Positions 15,043-51,609 of a stretch of 64,000 bases of DNA are shown piece after piece. Made by a program: the position numbers and the translations under genes. The DNA comes from Nocardia altamirensis NBRC 108246 (GTDB taxonomy: Bacteria > Actinomycetota > Actinomycetes > Mycobacteriales > Mycobacteriaceae), in the NCBI RefSeq assembly GCF_001612685.1, contig NZ_BDAY01000015.1, positions 124,001-188,000 of the forward strand, in the 5' to 3' direction. Every line of letters starts with the position of its first letter. The first letter of the stretch is position 1. The notes under the pieces were generated by a model. That model was not told the DNA's origin, did not search any database, and worked only from the letters and a program-made list of their open reading frames with translations.

Positions 15043-16209
15043 TTACTTGGCCGCTGCCAGTTCGGCGGCCTTGTCGGCGCCTTCGTCCATTGTCTGCGCA
15101 AGAGTGATCAGCGGGTGCGCGGCATCGACGAGAATTTGACGACCCTCGTCCACCTTGTTGCCGTCGAGCCGGACGACCAGCGGCTTGTTCGCTTCGCCGC
15201 CGAGGATCTCCAGCGCCTTGACGATGCCGTTGGCGACCGCGTCACAGGCGGTGATGCCACCGAAAACATTCACGAACACGCTCTTGACCTGTGCGTCGCC
15301 CAGGATGACGTCGAGACCGGCCGCCATCACCTCGGCCGAGGCGCCGCCACCGATGTCGAGGAAGTTGGCGGGCTTGACGCCGCCGTGGTTCTCGCCCGCG
15401 TAGGCGACCACGTCGAGGGTCGACATGACCAGACCCGCGCCGTTGCCGATGATGCCGACCTCACCGTCGAGCTTGACGTAGTTGAGGTCGTTCTCCTTGG
15501 CCTTGAGCTCCAAGGGATCGGTCGCGTCCTTGTCCGCGAAGGCCTCGTGGTCCGGGTGCCGGAACTCGGCGTTCTCGTCCAGGGTGACCTTGCCGTCCAG
15601 GGCGAGGATCTCGTCCTGCGGGGTGCGCACGAGCGGGTTGACCTCCACCAGGGTGGCGTCCTCCTTGACGAACACCTCCCACAGCTTCTGGATGGTCACG
15701 GCCGCCGCGTCGAGCACCTCGGCGGGCAGGTGGCCCTGCTCGGCGATCGAGCGGGCGAAAGCGAGGTCGACACCCTTGACGGCGTCGACGGCGATCTTGG
15801 CGAGGCGCTCCGGCTTGGTTGCGGCGACCTCTTCGATCTCCATGCCGCCTTCGACCGAGCACATGGCCAGGTAGGTGCGGTTGGACCGATCGAGCAGGAA
15901 GGAGATGTAGTACTCCTCCGCAATGTCCTTGGCTTCGGCGACAAGGATCTTCTTGGTGATGTGGCCCTTGATGTCCAGGCCGAGGATGTTCTGTGCGTGC
16001 GTGAACGCGTCGTCCGCGGTGGCGGCGTACTTGACGCCACCCGCCTTGCCACGGCCACCGGCCTTGACCTGAGCCTTGACCATCACCGGCTTGCCGATTT
16101 CCTCCGCGATGGCGCGGGCGTCCTCGGCCGTGTCCGTGACGCGGCCCTCGGACGAAGGCACTCCGTGCTTAACGAAGAGCTCCTTCGCCTGATATTCGAA
16201 GAGATCCAT
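15043..16209 (-). CDS. sucC: succinyl-CoA synthetase beta subunit
   Basis: A 388-residue protein, the exact usual length, starting at ATG 16209 ([18 protein letters not shown]); in-frame codons further upstream would add residues unlike the family. The ATP-grasp domain occupies about 1-235 ([19 protein letters not shown] nucleotide-binding loop, EVNPLVRT metal-binding segment). The C-terminal ligase domain has [18 protein letters not shown] and [12 protein letters not shown]. The [10 protein letters not shown] pattern does not by itself decide ATP versus GTP preference. First gene of the sucCD operon. Confidence 0.97.
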
Positions 16210-43164: not shown

Positions 43165-43171
43165 GATGATC

Positions 43172-44191
43172 ATGAGTGAGCCGCAGCCGATTCTCGATCC
43201 GCTCACCCCGGCCGCGATCTTCCTGGTCGCCACCATCGACGAGGGCGGCGAGGCGGTCGTGCGGGACACCATCGCCGATCTGTCCGGCCTGCGCCGCTCG
43301 GTCGGTTTCCGGCTGCCGGGGGCGGGGCTCAGCTGCGTCGCCTCGATCGGCTCTGCGGCGTGGGATCGACTCTTCGCCGGACCGAAGCCTGCCGAGCTGC
43401 ACGAGTTCCCCGGCTTCGTCGGCGAGCACCACCAGGCCCCCGCGACGCCAGGCGATCTGCTGTTCCACATTCGCGCGGAGAACCAGGACGCCTGCTTCGA
43501 GCTGGCCATGACGATCGGCGATCGGCTCGCAGGCGCGGCAACGATCGTCGACGAGACCGTCGGCTTCCGCTACTTCGAACAGCGCGACCTGCTCGGCTTC
43601 GTCGACGGCACCGAGAACCCGGAGGGCCGATCCGCCTATGCCGCCGCGTTGGTCGGCGACGAGGACCCCGAGTTCCGCGGCGGCAGCTACGTCATCGTGC
43701 AGAAATACCTGCACCCGATGGCGGACTGGCGCGCGCTGACCGTCGAGCAGCAGGAGAAGATCATCGGGCGCACCAAGCTCGACGACTTCGAGCTCTCCGA
43801 CGCCGACAAGCCCGCCGACTCGCACGTCGCGGTGAACACCATCGTCGACGCCGACGGCACCGAGCGCCAGATCCTGCGCGCCAACATGCCGTTCGGCAGC
43901 GTCAAGGACGGTGAGTTCGGGACGTACTACATCGCCTACGCGGCGACGCCGAGCATCACCGAGCTGATGCTCACCCGCATGTTCGTCGGCACCGACGAGG
44001 CGGCCTACGACCGGATCCTCGACTTCTCCATCGCAGTCACCGGCACGTCCTTCTTCGCGCCGTCGTTGGACTTCCTGGAAGAACTTCCGCCACCACCGGA
44101 GCCTGCGGTCGCGGCGGAAGCGGTGCAGCCCAACGACATCGGCTCGGGCTCACTCGGTATCGGCACGTTGAAAAGGAGCATGCAGTCATGA
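43172..44191 (+). CDS. DyP-type heme peroxidase with encapsulin cargo-loading peptide
   Basis: A 339-residue dye-decolorizing peroxidase. Catalytic Asp145 lies in GFVDGTEN, the proximal heme His218 in DSHVAVN and the distal Arg236 in ILRANMPFG. After the ferredoxin-like fold, a Pro/Ala linker (306-322) leads to a C-terminal tag with SGSLGIGTLKR (325-335). This LGIGxLKR motif is the family 1 encapsulin targeting peptide. The stop overlaps the encapsulin ATG as ATGA, so cargo and shell are co-translated. Oxidative-stress protection inside a nanocompartment is the expected role. Confidence 0.96.
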   Translation: MSEPQPILDPLTPAAIFLVATIDEGGEAVVRDTIADLSGLRRSVGFRLPGAGLSCVASIGSAAWDRLFAGPKPAELHEFPGFVGEHHQAPATPGDLLFHIRAENQDACFELAMTIGDRLAGAATIVDETVGFRYFEQRDLLGFVDGTENPEGRSAYAAALVGDEDPEFRGGSYVIVQKYLHPMADWRALTVEQQEKIIGRTKLDDFELSDADKPADSHVAVNTIVDADGTERQILRANMPFGSVKDGEFGTYYIAYAATPSITELMLTRMFVGTDEAAYDRILDFSIAVTGTSFFAPSLDFLEELPPPPEPAVAAEAVQPNDIGSGSLGIGTLKRSMQS

Positions 44192-44988
44192 ACAACCTCC
44201 ATCGCGAACTCGCGCCGGTCACCGACGAGGCATGGTCGGCGATCGAGGAAGAGGCGACACGCACCTTCAAACGGCACATCGCCGGGCGCCGCGTCGTCGA
44301 CCTGTCCGGCCCGCACGGCCTCGACTACGCCGCGGTCGGCACCGGGCACACCACCCAGATCGCCGCGCCCGCCGAGGGCGTGCTCGCCAAGCAGCGGATC
44401 GTCGCGCCGCTGGTCGAGCTGCGGGTGCCGTTCCGGCTCTCGCGCGAGGAGCTCGACAATGTCGAGCGCGGCGCCAAGGACACCGACCTCGATCCGGTGA
44501 AGGACGCCGCGCAGCGGATCGCGTTCGCCGAGGATCGGGCCATCTTCGAGGGCTATCAGGCCGCAGGCATCACCGGCATGCGAGCCAGCTCGACCAACGA
44601 TCCGATCTCGCTGCCCAACGATCCACGGCTGGTGCCTGAGTCGATCGCGCTCGCGCTCAGCGCGCTGCGGCTGGCCGGCGTCGACGGGCCCTACTCGGTG
44701 CTGCTCAGCGCTGATCTGTTCACCGCGGTCAGCGAGACCTCCGACCACGGCCATCCGATCCGCACGCACATCGAGCGCCTCATCCCGGACGGCGAGATCG
44801 TCTGGGCGCCTGCGATCGACGGCGCGTTCGTGCTGACCACCCGCGGCGGTGACTTCGATCTCCGCCTCGGACAGGACCTTTCGATCGGTTACCTGTCGCA
44901 CGACGCCGACTCGGTGCAGTTGTACTTCCAGCAGAGCCTGACCTTCCTGGTGCACACCGCCGAGGCCGCGGTCGCGCTGCAATCTTGA
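44188..44988 (+). CDS. family 1 encapsulin shell protein
   Basis: A 266-residue HK97-fold shell protein. Characteristic segments are MNNLHRELAPVTDEAWSAIEEEATRTFKRHIAGRRVVDLSGPHG at the N-terminus, REELDNVERGAKDTDLDPVKDAA (E-loop region), YQAAGITGM, and the end FDLRLGQDLSIGYLSHDADSVQLYFQQSLTFLV. The size fits the T=1, 60-subunit, about 24-nm compartments of actinobacterial DyP systems. Coupled directly to the cargo peroxidase gene; a strong terminator follows. Confidence 0.96.
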   Translation: MNNLHRELAPVTDEAWSAIEEEATRTFKRHIAGRRVVDLSGPHGLDYAAVGTGHTTQIAAPAEGVLAKQRIVAPLVELRVPFRLSREELDNVERGAKDTDLDPVKDAAQRIAFAEDRAIFEGYQAAGITGMRASSTNDPISLPNDPRLVPESIALALSALRLAGVDGPYSVLLSADLFTAVSETSDHGHPIRTHIERLIPDGEIVWAPAIDGAFVLTTRGGDFDLRLGQDLSIGYLSHDADSVQLYFQQSLTFLVHTAEAAVALQS

Positions 44989-45667: not shown

Positions 45668-46351
45668 TTACGCGGCAGGCGGTTCCAGCCGTTCGAGCAG
45701 CTGGTGTGCCGCCGTGCGCAGCGCGTCCAGGTCGCCGGGCCAGCCGAGCACGCGCAGGGCCGCGTCAGGGATCGTCCGCTCGGCGGCGGCCGGTGCGACA
45801 CCTTCATCCGAGCGGATGCCGATCACCATCTCGACCAGCCGGAACGGCAGGGCTTGCGCGTCGGTGATGCCTGCGCCGCCGACTTCGGCCAGCACGGCGG
45901 CGGCCAAAGCCTCATAGTGTCTGCGCAATTCGTCACGGCGGAGCCGGAAGGTCGCGAATCGGGCGGTACGCACCTCGGGAAGCAGGTAGAGCGCACCGAG
46001 ATTCCAGCGCGCCGCGCAGAGCTGCCTGACGTCGAAGGATGCCAGCGCGTAGAGGCGGGTCGGCGCCGATTCCTTGACCGCGTCCAGCCGGACAGCGAGT
46101 TCCAGTGGGGTGGTGACGGTTTCGGCGAGTAGCGCGTCGAGGATGTCGTCCTTGGCCGCGAAGTGGTGGTACAGCGAGGCCTGTCTGATGCCGACGGCGT
46201 CGGCGATCACCCTGGTCGAGGTGTTGGCATAACCGTTGGTGGTGAACAACTCTCCGGCAGCGTCGAGGATCTCGGCGCGCGGTGTCCCGCCGCGACGGAG
46301 TCGCTGCGCTATCCGGGGACGGCCGGGGCCGAGGTTTGCCACAGGGCCCAT
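45668..46351 (-). CDS. TetR family regulator of the permease/DUF1989 operon
   Basis: A 227-residue protein from ATG 46351; an in-frame start further upstream would add an odd Gly/Arg stretch. The helix-turn-helix is ANTSTRVIADAVGIRQASLYHHFAAKDDILDALL (about 45-80), preceded by RAEILDAAGELFTTNGY. The C-terminal ligand domain has no recognisable motif. It is divergent from the permease operon, with palindromes in the shared region (46396-46413 and 46442-46453), so it likely represses that operon and itself. The effector may be the transported nitrogen compound; inference. Confidence 0.86.
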   Translation of the reverse strand: MGPVANLGPGRPRIAQRLRRGGTPRAEILDAAGELFTTNGYANTSTRVIADAVGIRQASLYHHFAAKDDILDALLAETVTTPLELAVRLDAVKESAPTRLYALASFDVRQLCAARWNLGALYLLPEVRTARFATFRLRRDELRRHYEALAAAVLAEVGGAGITDAQALPFRLVEMVIGIRSDEGVAPAAAERTIPDAALRVLGWPGDLDALRTAAHQLLERLEPPAA

Positions 46352-46395
46352 TCTGGCAGGCGGCGCGGCGCGACGATCGTGCCCACCCCCGCCAC

Positions 46396-46413
46396 ATGGC
46401 ATATTCCTGCCAT
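46396..46413. promoter_or_regulatory. palindrome, possible TetR operator
   Basis: ATGGCA-TATTCC-TGCCAT, perfect 6-bp arms with a 6-bp spacer, in the divergent region 45 bp upstream of the TetR start. Confidence 0.45.
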
Positions 46414-46464: not shown

Positions 46465-46544
46465 ACATGCGGGTCACGAAAAGTGCGATCACCTCCTTAA
46501 AACTGTCATCTGATAGGTATTGGCCGCATGCTTAAGGACCCGCC
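46465..46544 (+). promoter_or_regulatory. structured 5' leader with SD-sequestering helices (candidate riboregulator)
   Basis: Three pairings are visible: CATGCGG (46466-46472) with CCGCATG (46524-46530); TCCTTAA (46494-46500) with the Shine-Dalgarno region TTAAGGA (46532-46538); and GCGGGTC (46469-46475) with GACCCGC (46537-46543). The first two cross each other like a pseudoknot; the third excludes both. The stretch GATCACCTCCTT (46487-46498) equals the 3' end of 16S rRNA, so the leader carries its own anti-SD. It does not match guanidine riboswitch classes I-III as far as I can recognise. Regulation is inferred. Confidence 0.45.
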
Positions 46545-48068
46545 ATGGCCGCAACGCTCACCTCCGCCCCACCGCCCGACACCAGCGCGGACGGTCTCGA
46601 CCTCACCCGATTCGGCTATCAGCCGGTGCTGCATCGCAAACTCGGGCGCTACGCCTCGTTCGCCGCAGGGTTTTCCTTCGTCTCCATCCTCACCACGATC
46701 TTCCAGTTCTTCGGCTTCGGCTATTCGTTCGGCGGCGCCGCATTCTTCTGGACCTGGCCGATCGTCTTCGCGGGCCAGTTCCTGGTCGCGCTCAATTTCG
46801 CCGAATTGGCCGCGCATTACCCGATTTCCGGCTGCATATATCAGTGGTCGCGGCGACTCGGCGGCGAGATCGTCGGCTGGTTCGCGGGCTGGATGATGAT
46901 CATCGCGCAGATCGTGACCGCTGCAGCAGCCGCCATCGCGCTGCAGGTGGTCCTGCCGTCCATCTGGAGCGGCTTCCAGCTCATCGGTGACGACACGGCA
47001 CTCACCTCGGCCTCCGGCGCGACGAACGCGGTGCTGCTCGGCAGCGTGCTGCTGATGATCACCACGCTGATCAATGTGATCGGCATCGATGTGATGGCGC
47101 GGATCAATTCGATCGGCGTCACCGTCGAGATCGTCGGCGTGCTCGCGATCATCGCGCTGTTCTTCAGCAACACCGAGCGTGGTCCCGGCGTTGTCCTGCA
47201 GACCGACCAGGCAGCACCGGGCCCGTACTGGGCCGCGTTCCTGGTCTCGGGACTGATGGCCGCCTACGTGATGGTCGGATTCGATTCCGCCGGTGAGCTT
47301 TCCGAGGAAACGAAGAACCCGCGCCGGGTGGCGCCGCGCACCATCCTGACCGCGCTGTCGGCGTCCGCGCTCGGCGGCGGGCTGCTGCTGATCAGCGCGC
47401 TGATGGCCGCGCCGAGCCTGTCCGACGGGGCACTGGCCACCGACGGCCTCGCCTACGTGCTCACCGCCAAACTGAACAGCCCGGCGGGCACGGTGCTGCT
47501 CGGCTGTGTCGCGGTGGCGATCACGGTGTGCACCTTGGCAATTCAGACCGCCGGATCACGCCTGATGTTCTCGATGGCCAGGGACGGCAAGCTGCCGTTC
47601 GCCAAACCACTTGCCGTCGTGCACAACCGCTTCGGCACCCCGGTCCTGCCCTCGATCGTCATCGGCGTGCTCGGAATCGGCTTGCTGCTGGTCAATCTCG
47701 GCAATGCCGCGATCTTCGCCACGCTCGCCAGCGTGTGTATCGTGACGCTGTACCTGGCCTATCTGCTGGTGACGGTGCCGCTGCTGGTGCGACGCTGCAA
47801 GGGCTGGCCTGCCGAGGACCCCGACACGACGCTGTTCAGCCTCGGCCGCTTCGGCATTCCGATCAACGTGCTCGCCGTGACCTGGGGCATTGCGATGGCG
47901 GTGAACCTGGCGTGGCCACGCGCCGAGGTATACACCCCCAAGGGCGGCGGCTGGTGGATGCTCTGGGCCGCACCGCTGTTCGTGCTGCTCGTGGTCGCGG
48001 TCGGCGTGCTCGTGCACTGGTTCGTGCGCACGGCGCCGCGCGCCGAAACCGCTACGCAGCCCGCCTGA
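46545..48068 (+). CDS. APC family amino acid/nitrogen-compound permease
   Basis: A 507-residue membrane protein with about 12 hydrophobic segments. Features of the APC superfamily: RKLGRYASFAAGFSFVSILTTIFQFFGFGYSFGG (TM1 region with the Gly-rich unwound part) and VGFDSAGELSEETKNPRRVAPRTI after TM6, plus SRLMFSMARDGKLPF. AAGGA precedes ATG 46545. Permeases of this subgroup accompany paired DUF1989 and urea/guanidine carboxylase genes and are thought to import the substrate. First gene of a four-gene operon. Confidence 0.92.
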   Translation: MAATLTSAPPPDTSADGLDLTRFGYQPVLHRKLGRYASFAAGFSFVSILTTIFQFFGFGYSFGGAAFFWTWPIVFAGQFLVALNFAELAAHYPISGCIYQWSRRLGGEIVGWFAGWMMIIAQIVTAAAAAIALQVVLPSIWSGFQLIGDDTALTSASGATNAVLLGSVLLMITTLINVIGIDVMARINSIGVTVEIVGVLAIIALFFSNTERGPGVVLQTDQAAPGPYWAAFLVSGLMAAYVMVGFDSAGELSEETKNPRRVAPRTILTALSASALGGGLLLISALMAAPSLSDGALATDGLAYVLTAKLNSPAGTVLLGCVAVAITVCTLAIQTAGSRLMFSMARDGKLPFAKPLAVVHNRFGTPVLPSIVIGVLGIGLLLVNLGNAAIFATLASVCIVTLYLAYLLVTVPLLVRRCKGWPAEDPDTTLFSLGRFGIPINVLAVTWGIAMAVNLAWPRAEVYTPKGGGWWMLWAAPLFVLLVVAVGVLVHWFVRTAPRAETATQPA

Positions 48069-48146
48069 CTCAGCCGCGCGGTGGTGGCGTCGGCCACCAC
48101 CGCGCTGTGCGAATCGAACTGACAGCACCCGTCGAAGGGAGCACTG

Positions 48147-48899
48147 ATGACCAGCACCGCATCCACCATGGGCGCCATGGCGCACGCTCGCGCGCAGGCA
48201 GCCGCCGCGGCCATCGCGGAGCCCGCACTGCCCGAGGGTGTCGACGCCGCCGCCATAACCTTTGCCCAGCGCATTCCGGCGAGCGGCTATGCCAACGTCG
48301 CGCTGGGGCGCGGCACCCGGATCCGGCTGTCCGACCCGGCGGGCGCCGCGTGCGCGCATCTGCTGCTGGTACGCACGGACGCGCCGTGGGAACGACTGAA
48401 TGTCGCTGACACCGTGAAGGTTCCGTGGCAGGCCTATCTCGGCGACGGACATCCGCTGCTGTCCGACCAGGGCCGCGTCCTCGCCACCGTGCTGGCCGAT
48501 ACCTCGGGCCGCCACGACACCCTGTGCGGGCCGACCGCCGAGGCACGGCAACTGCTTCGCCTTGCCGGGGCCAAACACGGTCTGGCACCGCGGGATATCG
48601 GCCCGACAGTGTCGTTCTTCCGCGGGATCCGCGTCGAGGCCGACGGCGCGCTGACCGCCACCGGCAGCGCCGTCGCCGGTGCGTCGGTCGACCTGCTGGT
48701 ACACCTCCCGGTCACCCTGCTTGTCGCCAATGCCGCACATCCGCTCGACGACCGCGCCGCCACCGAGCTCGATGTCGTCGCATGGGCCGCGCAGGCGGAC
48801 CTCGAGGTCACGCACAACACCGACCCGGAATATCAACGGGCGGTGCAGAACACCGAACAGGCCTGGATCGCCGCGCGCACGCCGGAGGTAACGCCATGA
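48147..48899 (+). CDS. DUF1989 protein 1 (urea-amidolyase-associated protein / carboxyguanidine deiminase subunit-like)
   Basis: A 250-residue protein with GGAG 5-6 nt before ATG 48147. The DUF1989 core includes IPASGYANVALGRGTRIRLSDPAGAACAHLLLV and SDQGRVLATVLADTSGRHDTLCGP (His and Cys of the putative metal site), with FFRGIRVEADGAL. Family work on bacterial guanidine assimilation assigns such paired proteins to carboxyguanidine deiminase, which converts carboxyguanidine to allophanate. Its TGA overlaps the next ATG (ATGA), so the subunits are made in a fixed ratio. Confidence 0.88.
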   Translation: MTSTASTMGAMAHARAQAAAAAIAEPALPEGVDAAAITFAQRIPASGYANVALGRGTRIRLSDPAGAACAHLLLVRTDAPWERLNVADTVKVPWQAYLGDGHPLLSDQGRVLATVLADTSGRHDTLCGPTAEARQLLRLAGAKHGLAPRDIGPTVSFFRGIRVEADGALTATGSAVAGASVDLLVHLPVTLLVANAAHPLDDRAATELDVVAWAAQADLEVTHNTDPEYQRAVQNTEQAWIAARTPEVTP

Positions 48900-49513
48900 C
48901 CAGCACGGAGCGTACCGTCGTGCGCGACGAGACCGTCCAAGCCCGCGCTCCGTGGTCCGCGGTGGTCCGGGCGGGTGAGCACCTGGAGATCATCGATCTG
49001 CACGGCAATCAGGCGGTCGACTGCCTCCTGTACTCGGCCGCCGACCACACCGACCGCTACAGCGCCCAGGCCACCGTCGCCGCACAGCGCAACATCTTCC
49101 TCACCACCGGCAGCGTGCTGCTGACCGACACAGGCACCGCCTTGATGACCGTGATCGCCGACGAGGTCGGCAACCACGACACCATCGCGGGTGCCTGCTC
49201 GCAGGAGTCGAACACGCTGCGCTACGGCCACCACACCCGCCATCAGCACGCGTGCGTGGAGAACTTCCTCACCGCGGCGATGCAGTGGGGCCTCGACAAG
49301 CGGGACCTGGTGTCGAACATCAACTGGTTCATGAACGTTCCGGTGGAGCCGGACGGCACCCTCGGCATCGTCGACGGATTGTCCGCGCCCGGAAAGAAAG
49401 TCACGCTGCGTGCCGAGATCGACACCCTGGTGCTGGTGTCCAACTGCCCGCAGATCAACAACCCCTGCAACGGTTTCGACCCGACACCGGTCCGGATGGT
49501 GGTGACGCGATGA
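48896..49513 (+). CDS. DUF1989 protein 2 (urea-amidolyase-associated protein / carboxyguanidine deiminase subunit-like)
   Basis: A 205-residue protein beginning in ATGA shared with the first DUF1989 gene. Motifs: LEIIDLHGNQAVDCLLYSAAD, DEVGNHDTIAGACSQESNTLRYGHHTRHQHAC, NINWFMNVPVEPDGTL and NCPQINNPCNGFDPTPVRMVV. The His/Cys residues fit a metal site. Its TGA (49511-49513) overlaps the ATG of the carboxyltransferase gene. The paired arrangement is the usual one for a heteromeric deiminase, so this half of the guanidine-type pathway looks intact. Confidence 0.9.
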   Translation: MTSTERTVVRDETVQARAPWSAVVRAGEHLEIIDLHGNQAVDCLLYSAADHTDRYSAQATVAAQRNIFLTTGSVLLTDTGTALMTVIADEVGNHDTIAGACSQESNTLRYGHHTRHQHACVENFLTAAMQWGLDKRDLVSNINWFMNVPVEPDGTLGIVDGLSAPGKKVTLRAEIDTLVLVSNCPQINNPCNGFDPTPVRMVVTR

Positions 49514-51609
49514 CCCTCGCAGAACTACACCCCCGCGCCGCACCGACTGGCCCTGAGCCGCAGGCAACGCAGACTCCCGCCGCCGAATGCTGCTCGCCGG
49601 TTGACGGACAACCGGGTGCCTCGGTCACGGTGGTGCGCCCGGGAATGCTGACCACCGTGCAGGATTGGCCGGGACGGACCGGCTACTGGCACGTCGGAGT
49701 GCCGCCATCGGGGCCGATGGACGACCTGTCGTTCCGGCTCGGCAACCGAGCGCTCGGCAACCCCGATGGCGCGGCCGGACTGGAGTGCACGTTGGCCGGG
49801 CCCGCACTGCGCTTCTCCGCGCCGACGTGGATATGCGTCACCGGCGCGCCCGTTGACAGCACCGTGGACGGCGCACGCGTGCCGCAGTGGCGCACGGTCC
49901 TGGTGCCCGCAGGCGGCCTCCTCGAGGTCGGCGCGCTGCGCGGCCCGGGAATGCGGTGCTACGTGTTGGTCGCAGGCGGCCTCCAGCTGCCCGAATATCT
50001 CGGCAGCACCGCCACTTTCACGCTCGGACGGTTCGGCGGCAGCGACGGCGGCGTCCTGCGCGCCGACGAAGTGCTGCCGCTCGGGGCGCCGCACGGCGCC
50101 GTCACGACCGGCGTCCCGGCCGACGATCAACCGGCGATGACCGAACGCTGGGAACTGGCCGTCACCGAGGGCCCGCACGGCGCACCGGAATTCTTCACGC
50201 GCGCCGACGTCGACACCATCATCGGCACCGACTACGCGGTGCACTTCAACTCCGACCGCACCGGCGTTCGCCTCGTCGGCCCCAAGCCGGAGTGGGCACG
50301 CACCGACGGCGGCGAGGCGGGGCTGCACCCGTCGAACATTCACGACACCGCGTATTCGGTTGGTGCACTGGACTTCACCGGCGACACCCCGATCCTGCTC
50401 GGCCCGGACGGTCCGAGCCTCGGCGGTTTCGTCTGCCCGGTGACCGTCGTCGCCGCTGACCGCTGGAAGCTCGGGCAGCTGGCACCGGGCAATGCCGTCC
50501 GGTTCGTGCCCATCCGCGCCGAGCGCGCCGCCTCGCTGCGCGATCTCGGCCCTGGCCGTCGCGCCGCCTGGCCCATCGTGCTGTCGTCGGGCGGCGACGG
50601 TGACGACGGCGTGCTGCGCCGGGCCGAGGTCGACGACGAGACCGGGGTGACCTATCGCCGGGCGGGCGACGACGCGGTACTCGTCGAATACGGCGCCATG
50701 ACATTGGATCTCGGCCTGCGCGCCCGCGTGCACGCCCTCCATCAGCACCTGCTCGCGGCCGGCGTGCGTGGCGTGACCGAACTGACCCCCGGCATCCGGT
50801 CACTCCAGATCCGGGTCGACCCGCACGTCCTCTCCCGCACCGCGCTCCTCGATCTGCTCGCCGAGGCCGAAGCGCAGCTGCCCGCCGCCGATGCGCTCGT
50901 CGTCCCCAGCCGCACCGTGCATCTCCCGCTCTCCTGGGACGACCCGTCCACCCGCGAGGCGATCACCCGCTACATGCACGGTGTCCGCGCCGACGCGCCG
51001 TGGTGCCCGTGGAATATCGAGTTCATCCGCCGGATGAACGGATTGGCCTCGGTGGCAGAGGTTTACGACACCGTGTTCAATGCCGAATACCTCGTCCTCG
51101 GCCTCGGCGACGTGTATCTCGGCGCACCGGTCGCCACCCCGACCGATCCGCGCCACCGCCTGGTGACCACCAAATACAACCCCGCCCGCACCTGGACCCC
51201 GCAGAACGCGGTCGGCATCGGCGGCGCCTACCTGTGCATCTACGGCATGGAAGGCCCCGGCGGCTACCAATTCGTCGGCCGCACCACCCAGGTCTGGAAC
51301 CATCACGCACGCACCGCACTGCCGCCTGGTGCGGACCGCTCCACCGCGGGCGCGGAAACACCATGGCTGCTCCGCTATTTCGATCGCATCCGCTGGTACC
51401 CGGTCGAGGCCGACGAACTCCTGGCCCGTCGTGCCGATTTCGCCGCGGGCATGATCGACGTCGACACCGAGGACGGCGAGTTCAGCCTCGCCGAGTACCG
51501 AAAGTTCCTCGCCGACAACGCCGAGTCCATCGATGCGTTCCGCGCCACCCAGTCCGCGGCCTTCGGTGCCGAACGCAGCTCGTGGCGGGCGGCCGGGGAG
51601 CTCGGCTGA
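49510..51609 (+). CDS. urea carboxylase-like carboxyltransferase lacking BC and BCCP domains
   Basis: A 699-residue protein from ATG 49510. Residues 40-340 are the AHS2/KipA half (VVRPGMLTTVQDWPGRTGYWHVGVPPSGPMDD) and 375-600 the AHS1/KipI half (EYGAMTLDLGLRARVHAL, LTPGIRSLQIRVDP, YNPARTWTPQNAVGIGGAYLCIYGMEGPGGYQFVGR). The tail (600-699) is the urea-carboxylase-specific region ending FLADNAESIDAFRATQSAAFGAERSSW. Normal urea/guanidine carboxylases are about 1200 residues: an N-terminal biotin carboxylase precedes this point and a biotinyl domain follows it. Both are absent, and no stand-alone copy lies in the window. Either partners act in trans or the chemistry differs, as in biotin-free KipI/KipA-type 5-oxoprolinases. 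Confidence 0.9.
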   Translation: MTLAELHPRAAPTGPEPQATQTPAAECCSPVDGQPGASVTVVRPGMLTTVQDWPGRTGYWHVGVPPSGPMDDLSFRLGNRALGNPDGAAGLECTLAGPALRFSAPTWICVTGAPVDSTVDGARVPQWRTVLVPAGGLLEVGALRGPGMRCYVLVAGGLQLPEYLGSTATFTLGRFGGSDGGVLRADEVLPLGAPHGAVTTGVPADDQPAMTERWELAVTEGPHGAPEFFTRADVDTIIGTDYAVHFNSDRTGVRLVGPKPEWARTDGGEAGLHPSNIHDTAYSVGALDFTGDTPILLGPDGPSLGGFVCPVTVVAADRWKLGQLAPGNAVRFVPIRAERAASLRDLGPGRRAAWPIVLSSGGDGDDGVLRRAEVDDETGVTYRRAGDDAVLVEYGAMTLDLGLRARVHALHQHLLAAGVRGVTELTPGIRSLQIRVDPHVLSRTALLDLLAEAEAQLPAADALVVPSRTVHLPLSWDDPSTREAITRYMHGVRADAPWCPWNIEFIRRMNGLASVAEVYDTVFNAEYLVLGLGDVYLGAPVATPTDPRHRLVTTKYNPARTWTPQNAVGIGGAYLCIYGMEGPGGYQFVGRTTQVWNHHARTALPPGADRSTAGAETPWLLRYFDRIRWYPVEADELLARRADFAAGMIDVDTEDGEFSLAEYRKFLADNAESIDAFRATQSAAFGAERSSWRAAGELG

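Follow-up and report, generated by a model that had tools for sequence, protein, structure and literature searches.

A guanidine-type carboxylase pared down to its carboxyltransferase in Nocardia and its relatives: a probable split enzyme

How does a carboxylase work when the half that charges and carries the carboxyl group is missing from its chain? The question is raised by an operon at positions 46545-51609 of a 64,000-nucleotide stretch of the genome of Nocardia altamirensis NBRC 108246 (contig NZ_BDAY01000015.1, positions 124,001 to 188,000; the window in what follows), in which genes for a permease, the two DUF1989 proteins UAAP1 and UAAP2 and a 699-residue carboxyltransferase follow one another in that order (Table 1). 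To our knowledge, all urea and guanidine carboxylases described so far carry a biotin carboxylase (BC) and a biotin carboxyl carrier protein (BCCP) of their own within one chain. We put the probability at roughly 60% that the 699-residue protein is the carboxyltransferase (CT) of a split guanidine carboxylase, which would obtain carboxybiotin in trans from the alpha subunit of an acyl-CoA carboxylase, AccA3 or another. A split (or biotin-free) guanidine carboxylase is a new form of a known enzyme, and a wider one than the first-pass annotation of the window could see: in Nocardia, Rhodococcus and mycobacteria, what is probably the starter enzyme of guanidine breakdown often exists as the final transfer domain alone.

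The protein itself is as the first-pass annotation described it, 699 residues that begin at AHS2 and stop at the end of AHS1. Model TIGR02712 aligns with it over positions 447-1110 of 1201 only (956.8 bits, E 1.6e-287, below the cut-off of 1303.85), and Pfam recognizes CT_A_B and CT_C_D alone; by both, the chain lacks the biotin carboxylase domain as well as a BCCP with its biotinylated lysine. What is present qualifies as an AHS2-AHS1 carboxyltransferase of the urea carboxylase type, with 3va7 and 5i8i as the best solved matches, and the same two structures, 5i8i and 3va7, rank first in a fold search with an AlphaFold2 prediction (built from 35 close sequences; mean predicted local distance difference test score 62.1, with residues 249-251 below 50). 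About 38 weakly conserved residues precede AHS2, and the C-terminus lies one residue beyond the last column aligned with most relatives. Of the 175 positions that do not vary among 18 full-length rows, 143 are equally constant across the 41 CT-only rows, and the remaining 32 mostly deviate in one or a few rows. The carboxyltransferase chemistry appears to have been kept in the CT-only proteins.

A tblastn search of the 64-kb window with five BC or BCCP queries gave no match at E 1e-4. The sole trace is weak: on the minus strand at C15:140000-140194, or about 16000-16194 of the window, 65 positions from the BC part of TIGR02712 align (18.8 bits, E 9.5e-4) with a 414-aa frame that is perhaps another ATP-grasp protein.

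The signature residues point to guanidine rather than urea. Guanidine carboxylases have been defined by having Asp where the K. lactis enzyme has its residues 1330 and 1584 (PMC11410670). The corresponding residues of the N. altamirensis protein are Asp288 and Asp534, and this D/D signature is found in 144 of 145 distinct CT-only proteins, the exception being the distant protein of locus L159, with Met at 288. Position 1330 is Asn in K. lactis and in the four urea-type full-length paralogues checked, one of them from N. altamirensis itself. The two DUF1989 proteins, both above their family cut-offs, are together assigned as a carboxyguanidine deiminase. The protein shares its operon partners and both aspartates with the known system of full-length guanidine carboxylase (BC-AHS2-AHS1-BCCP), heteromeric carboxyguanidine deiminase and allophanate hydrolase, and it is 53-69% identical to 22 guanidine-type fusions over the CT domain. 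It differs from them in lacking BC and BCCP, in having Asp249 where they have Ala, Ser or Asn, and in that its carboxyl donor is unlinked.

The short form is far from a peculiarity of one strain. It occurs in 130 of 148 Nocardia genomes at 75-85% identity (counted as a best E-value of 0 in the match table, plus G129, with the genus taken from organism names), and some match to the 699-residue protein is found in 147 of 148. Among the 18 other Nocardia genomes, G014 and G096 have partial CT matches beside a full-length enzyme and may hold broken CT-only genes. Within the family to which Nocardia, Rhodococcus and the mycobacteria belong, 172 of 251 genomes, covering 24 of 31 genera, match at E 1e-150 or better; the family matches listed are mostly frames below 1000 aa, with about a dozen exceptions, of which those in G164, G167, G170, G194, G195, G208 and G210 are full-length enzymes. 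At class level 46 of 394 genomes match, 31 of them outside the family, and of these 29 have frames of at least 1211 aa, one (G412) lies at a contig edge and one (G457, locus L159) is CT-only. A closer look at the best 80 of at least 587 matches, a set that is biased toward close relatives and that we call the named loci, found all 80 to be CT-only as judged by their C-terminal end, and none with a BC or BCCP match, although two (L203 and L254) have less than 800 bases upstream, where an upstream BC could not show. They span Nocardia, Skermania, Antrihabitans, Prescottella, Rhodococcus, Mycolicibacterium and Mycobacterium. The proposed check, whether the domain loss is shared by homologs with intact DUF1989 neighbours, came out positive in many genera. 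Of the 145 distinct CT-only sequences, 100 are flanked by at least 4.5 kb on both sides, and the one BC/BCCP flag among them (L245) is a spurious match within the CT gene.

The history of the short form can be read from two trees. A tree of 52 CT cores unites the 41 CT-only rows in a single clade, with weak support (80/56). A wider tree, which takes in Proteobacteria, K. lactis and further actinomycetes, again unites the CT-only rows (24 family rows chosen from 144), at 100/99. In 11 close CT-only pairs the ratio of nonsynonymous to synonymous substitution rates (dN/dS) is 0.07-0.19, indicating purifying selection. The first-pass annotation had held that full-length fusions at the same locus in relatives would reduce this copy to a mere deletion. 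Such fusions do exist in some family genera: in all seven loci examined (L122-L128) a full-length guanidine-type gene stands beside UAAP1, UAAP2 and an AmtR-like gene. The conclusion of a deletion in one strain does not follow from them, since the short form is a conserved clade. The simplest history would be a single loss of both end domains; transfer is also possible for the fused genes, because the full-length proteins of the family group with those of other families in the wider tree. The distant CT-only protein of L159 sits apart on a long branch. We do not claim a convergent origin for it, as grouping it with the family form in a single clade is not rejected by an approximately unbiased test (p 0.358); its genome, G457, is listed at 5% contamination and has a weak UAAP1 match (29%), and no second case was found in its family or order, both levels covering the same 5 genomes.

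The strongest sign of what the CT-only pathway makes comes from allophanate hydrolase, the enzyme that would act last. As the first-pass annotation had it, no BC, BCCP or allophanate hydrolase gene follows the operon, and the operon has no hydrolase gene of its own. The genome search that it had proposed turned up everything away from the window: several BC-BCCP alpha subunits, including one on contig C53 (the C53-type alpha), and on contig C68 a full-length urea carboxylase of 1219 aa (TIGR02712 1650 bits, above cut-off) flanked by a GntR gene and an allophanate hydrolase, which makes that hydrolase available to the window operon. At a threshold of E 1e-300, a full-length match accompanies the short form in 59 of the 130 Nocardia CT-only genomes (in G070 it covers just 753 of 1201 positions) and is missing from the other 71. 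By the rows listed, a hydrolase above the family cut-off is present in 68 of those 71 and in none of the 9 genomes that lack both carboxylases (Fisher p 9.5e-10, not corrected for kinship; the tally of hydrolase genomes is 136 against 135 listed rows, the extra one being G006, G085 or G114, so that 69/71 or 1/9 is possible). It is likewise present in 58 of the 59 genomes with both forms (not in G095) and in 9 of 9 with the full-length form only. At ten hydrolase loci from CT-only genomes without the full-length enzyme, eight retain a GntR-hydrolase arrangement from which the carboxylase is gone; one of the other two has no GntR match, and in G126 only carboxylase fragments are retained. The hydrolase thus outlives the urea carboxylase where a CT-only operon exists, which is the strongest sign that the CT-only protein makes an allophanate precursor, and the pathway probably makes allophanate. 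Directly downstream of the CT-only gene, a hydrolase gene is found at no fewer than 6 of 20 Nocardia loci, at 14 of 20 loci of other genera and at 30 of the 80 named loci.

The CT-only Nocardia genomes in which the GntR-allophanate hydrolase pair was noticed without its urea carboxylase are those of loci L129, L131, L132 and L133-L138, with carboxylase fragments between the two genes in L132.

Taken together, we propose that the operon would serve a nitrogen-scavenging guanidine pathway. The permease would take up guanidine, the 699-residue protein would convert it to carboxyguanidine, UAAP1 and UAAP2 would deiminate carboxyguanidine to allophanate, and an allophanate hydrolase, encoded adjacent or elsewhere, would free ammonia. 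The loss of the enzyme's own BC and BCCP would date to the base of a large clade within the family, and an acyl-CoA carboxylase would now supply N-carboxybiotin in trans through its BC-BCCP alpha subunit. As the BC-BCCP half is absent, the enzyme probably borrows its carboxyl-charging half, most likely from fatty-acid metabolism. The gene order, the domain loss and its conservation, the signature residues and the statistical link with the hydrolase are direct results; the identity of the donor and the reaction, like the substrate and the single loss, are what we infer from them. AccA3, which several beta subunits share in mycobacteria, would be the first candidate donor and the C53-type alpha the other. 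The mycobacterial AccA3 alpha subunit is common to three acyl-CoA carboxylases (PMC11001197), and by its title PDB entry 9yx5 is the M. smegmatis long chain acyl-CoA carboxylase complex with MSMEG_0435-MSMEG_0436 bound, AccA3 being among the chains. Within this bacterial family, the entry would be a precedent for the docking of AHS proteins on AccA3 complexes. Of 25 CT-only genomes tested, 24 have an AccA3 orthologue (at least 73% identity, near full length). The C53-type alpha was found at 58.8% identity or more in 12 family genomes, with a broken frame in one, these 12 having been selected for a prior hint of such a gene and so giving no measure of its universality; they include G154, in which no AccA3 was found, so AccA3 is possibly not the donor everywhere and the donor may differ between lineages.

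Several observations weigh against a split enzyme fed by AccA3 or its like. No donor is linked to the gene: at E 1e-4, no BC or BCCP match was found in any of 41 CT-only loci, which comprise the window and 40 others of 11-19 kb. An AccA3 orthologue was not found in G154, a CT-only genome in a single contig. G006, G093 and G114, CT-only and without the full-length enzyme, show no hydrolase above cut-off in the listed rows. The pair in 9yx5, known from title, chain names and sequences, is PxpB/C-like and is not a CT-only protein, and we found no biochemistry of a CT-only protein in the literature. Finally, plain domain loss leaves Asp249 unexplained.

G154 is a single-contig family genome of 3.2 Mb with just two strong BC matches. 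At L011 1495-1827 there is an orphan small biotin carrier of about 71 aa, second only to the full-length enzyme among the BCCP matches to the urea carboxylase model; it presumably resembles mycobacterial TB7.3, and we take its neighbours to be a sigma factor and an anti-sigma factor. A TB7.3-type stand-alone BCCP (C37) was considered as a dedicated partner and rejected, the smallest BCCP-matching frame in G154, G183 and G457 being 249 aa (G183; TIGR02712, E 1e-5).

Asp249 is also the observation that keeps the other half of the original either/or alive. Its column is the only one that separates CT-only from fused proteins sharply, positions 598 (His) and 424 (Glu) differing less so: CT-only sequences, the distant L159 included, have Asp throughout, and 27 fused proteins, K. 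lactis included, have Ala, Asn or Ser (a modest sample, counted after rows with too short a stretch of the domain had been removed, and in which 18 of the 22 guanidine-type rows are of actinomycete origin or carry the actinomycete residue Ala). The residue adjoins an Arg shared by all of 41 aligned sequences, and its role may lie either in helping a foreign carrier to dock or in a reaction without biotin. Under the latter, the CT-only protein would make carboxyguanidine from ATP and bicarbonate (or another donor), with Asp249 as a new catalytic or metal-binding residue, much as the 5-oxoprolinase subunits PxpB and PxpC are thought to act without biotin. The absence of a linked BC-BCCP partner fits this, as does the Asp shared at the same position by the stand-alone AHS2 proteins of N. 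altamirensis, G154 and M. smegmatis (MSMEG_0435). However, E. coli YbgK, likewise stand-alone, has Asn there, Pfam shows no ATP-binding domain in the 699-residue protein, common ancestry with the fused forms implies an ancestor that used biotin chemistry, and MSMEG_0435, with the same Asp, is reported on the AccA3 complex, so that docking fits equally well (9yx5). We regard a biotin-free enzyme as unlikely, and favour supply in trans on the strength of the 9yx5 precedent, the conserved CT residues and the retained hydrolase.

Other departures from the split guanidine carboxylase appear less probable still. A shift to another substrate, such as a substituted guanidine, urea or a lactam, would make the guanidine label wrong; the Asp249-Arg site may indeed differ from that of fused guanidine carboxylases, the transporter is swapped at L071 and L073, and 12 of the 80 named loci have no permease match although the remaining gene set is complete. 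Against this, both signature residues are kept in nearly all CT-only proteins, as noted above, and the DUF1989 pair stays with the CT-only gene, as does the hydrolase in part of the loci, which leaves such a shift doubtful. It is highly improbable that the protein works with, or regulates, its own genome's full-length urea carboxylase by borrowing its BC-BCCP: the N. altamirensis paralogue has a BC and a BCCP to lend, but 71 of 130 Nocardia CT-only genomes have no full-length match at E 1e-300, while the CT-only gene stays under purifying selection, and we rejected the paralogue as a general donor in view of those 71 genomes. A local deletion or pseudogene in a single strain, which the fused genes in the same operon of other family genera might have suggested, is refuted by the breadth of the short form (130 of 148 Nocardia plus other genera), its single clade and the low dN/dS.

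Among known systems, the same gene set with a divergent AmtR-like gene was described in the AmtR/GlnR-controlled operon MSMEG_2184-2189 and nfa22180-22230, called urea carboxylase or urea amidolyase there (PMC4222082, PMC3662644); by gene set, MSMEG_2187 would be the counterpart of the 699-residue protein. The string 'guanidin' occurs nowhere in the available text of PMC4222082, and a remark on missing domains was not seen in the available parts of either paper. MSMEG_0435-0436 (9yx5), from the same bacterial family, resembles the 699-residue protein in having an AHS1/AHS2 fold without fused BC-BCCP and Asp at the 249 position, but consists of two separate, PxpB/C-like chains and is distant in sequence (89 bits over the AHS2 part). 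The 5-oxoprolinase PxpABC also combines AHS1 and AHS2 without fused BC-BCCP; its activity needs PxpA. The 699-residue protein falls far below the Pxp model cut-offs (PxpC 117.1 of 500 bits, PxpB 31.4 of 145.55 bits), and no PxpA was seen among the operon neighbours looked at, no genome-wide search having been made. No earlier description of the CT-only form was found in the literature searched, which left subscription journals mostly outside its coverage, so that a prior description is possible.

The loss of both BC and BCCP by a clade that runs through much of a family including mycobacteria, Rhodococcus and Nocardia bears on more than one enzyme. If AccA3 feeds the protein, the same carboxybiotin pool would serve the scavenging of nitrogen from guanidine and the synthesis of fatty and mycolic acids, and a possible meaning would emerge for the binding of MSMEG_0435-0436 to the complex (9yx5). 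If instead the enzyme is biotin-free, it would represent new carboxylation chemistry and would undo the step by which stand-alone AHS proteins gave rise to a urea carboxylase that depends on biotin.

Table 1. Operon genes, upstream elements and diagnostic codons, in window positions
Feature	Position	Strand	Basis
TetR-family regulator, AmtR-like, divergent from permease	45668..46402	-	generic TetR-type NCBIfam matches, below cut-off; position as AmtR in the operon of PMC4222082
Palindrome CTGTCATCTGATAG, AmtR-like putative operator	46503..46516	+	42 bp ahead of permease
APC-type permease, likely guanidine importer	46545..48068	+	TIGR03428 842.2 bits, above cut-off
UAAP1, DUF1989, carboxyguanidine deiminase-type subunit	48147..48899	+	TIGR03425 214.2 bits (cut-off 205.95); PF09347
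UAAP2, DUF1989, carboxyguanidine deiminase-type subunit	48896..49513	+	TIGR03424 337.8 bits (cut-off 284.7); PF09347; ATGA overlap on each side
CT-only guanidine carboxylase protein, AHS2-AHS1, 699 aa, without BC/BCCP	49510..51609	+	TIGR02712 positions 447-1110 only; CT_A_B 62-334; CT_C_D 381-601
Asp249 codon, sole column separating CT-only from fused proteins	50254..50256	+	Asp in 145/145 CT-only, 0/27 fused
Asp288 codon (K. lactis 1330), guanidine-type specificity residue	50371..50373	+	Asp in 144/145 CT-only
Asp534 codon (K. lactis 1584), conserved carboxylase residue	51109..51111	+	Asp in all 171 distinct rows and K. lactis

The gene order first given for the operon stands, and its coupling by ATGA overlaps holds at two of three junctions, 48896-48899 (UAAP1/UAAP2) and 49510-49513 (UAAP2/carboxyltransferase); the permease and UAAP1 are separated by 78 bp. 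For the profile searches, translation of UAAP2 was started at base 48899. In place of the APC permease, loci L071 (7150-8670) and L073 (11799-13322) have an unrelated membrane protein upstream of UAAP1 that looks like a sodium-solute symporter by sequence.

A divergent TetR-family gene adjoins the operon in 75 of the 80 named loci. We take the one in the window (45668..46402) to be AmtR-like from its position, for which the source is given in Table 1, and from the AmtR sequence. The pattern CTNT-N6-ANAG, which was picked after inspection of the window and with the AmtR consensus in mind, is present in 89 of 93 distinct upstream regions, where shuffles predict 2.8. Control of the M. smegmatis operon by GlnR and AmtR has been measured (PMC4222082, PMC3662644), and the nitrogen operon with its AmtR gene is listed for N. 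farcinica as nfa22180-22230, with nfa22230 in the AmtR position (PMC4222082). As for a guanidine riboswitch, no Rfam family reaches its gathering threshold within the window.

Two further arrangements were noticed in passing. At 43166-44988 of the window, a Dyp-type peroxidase gene is followed, with an ATGA overlap, by one for an encapsulin shell protein of family 1, as is typical of encapsulins loaded with a peroxidase. At L261, a guanidine/urea carboxylase operon lies on a Serratia plasmid, about 1 kb from nifHDK.

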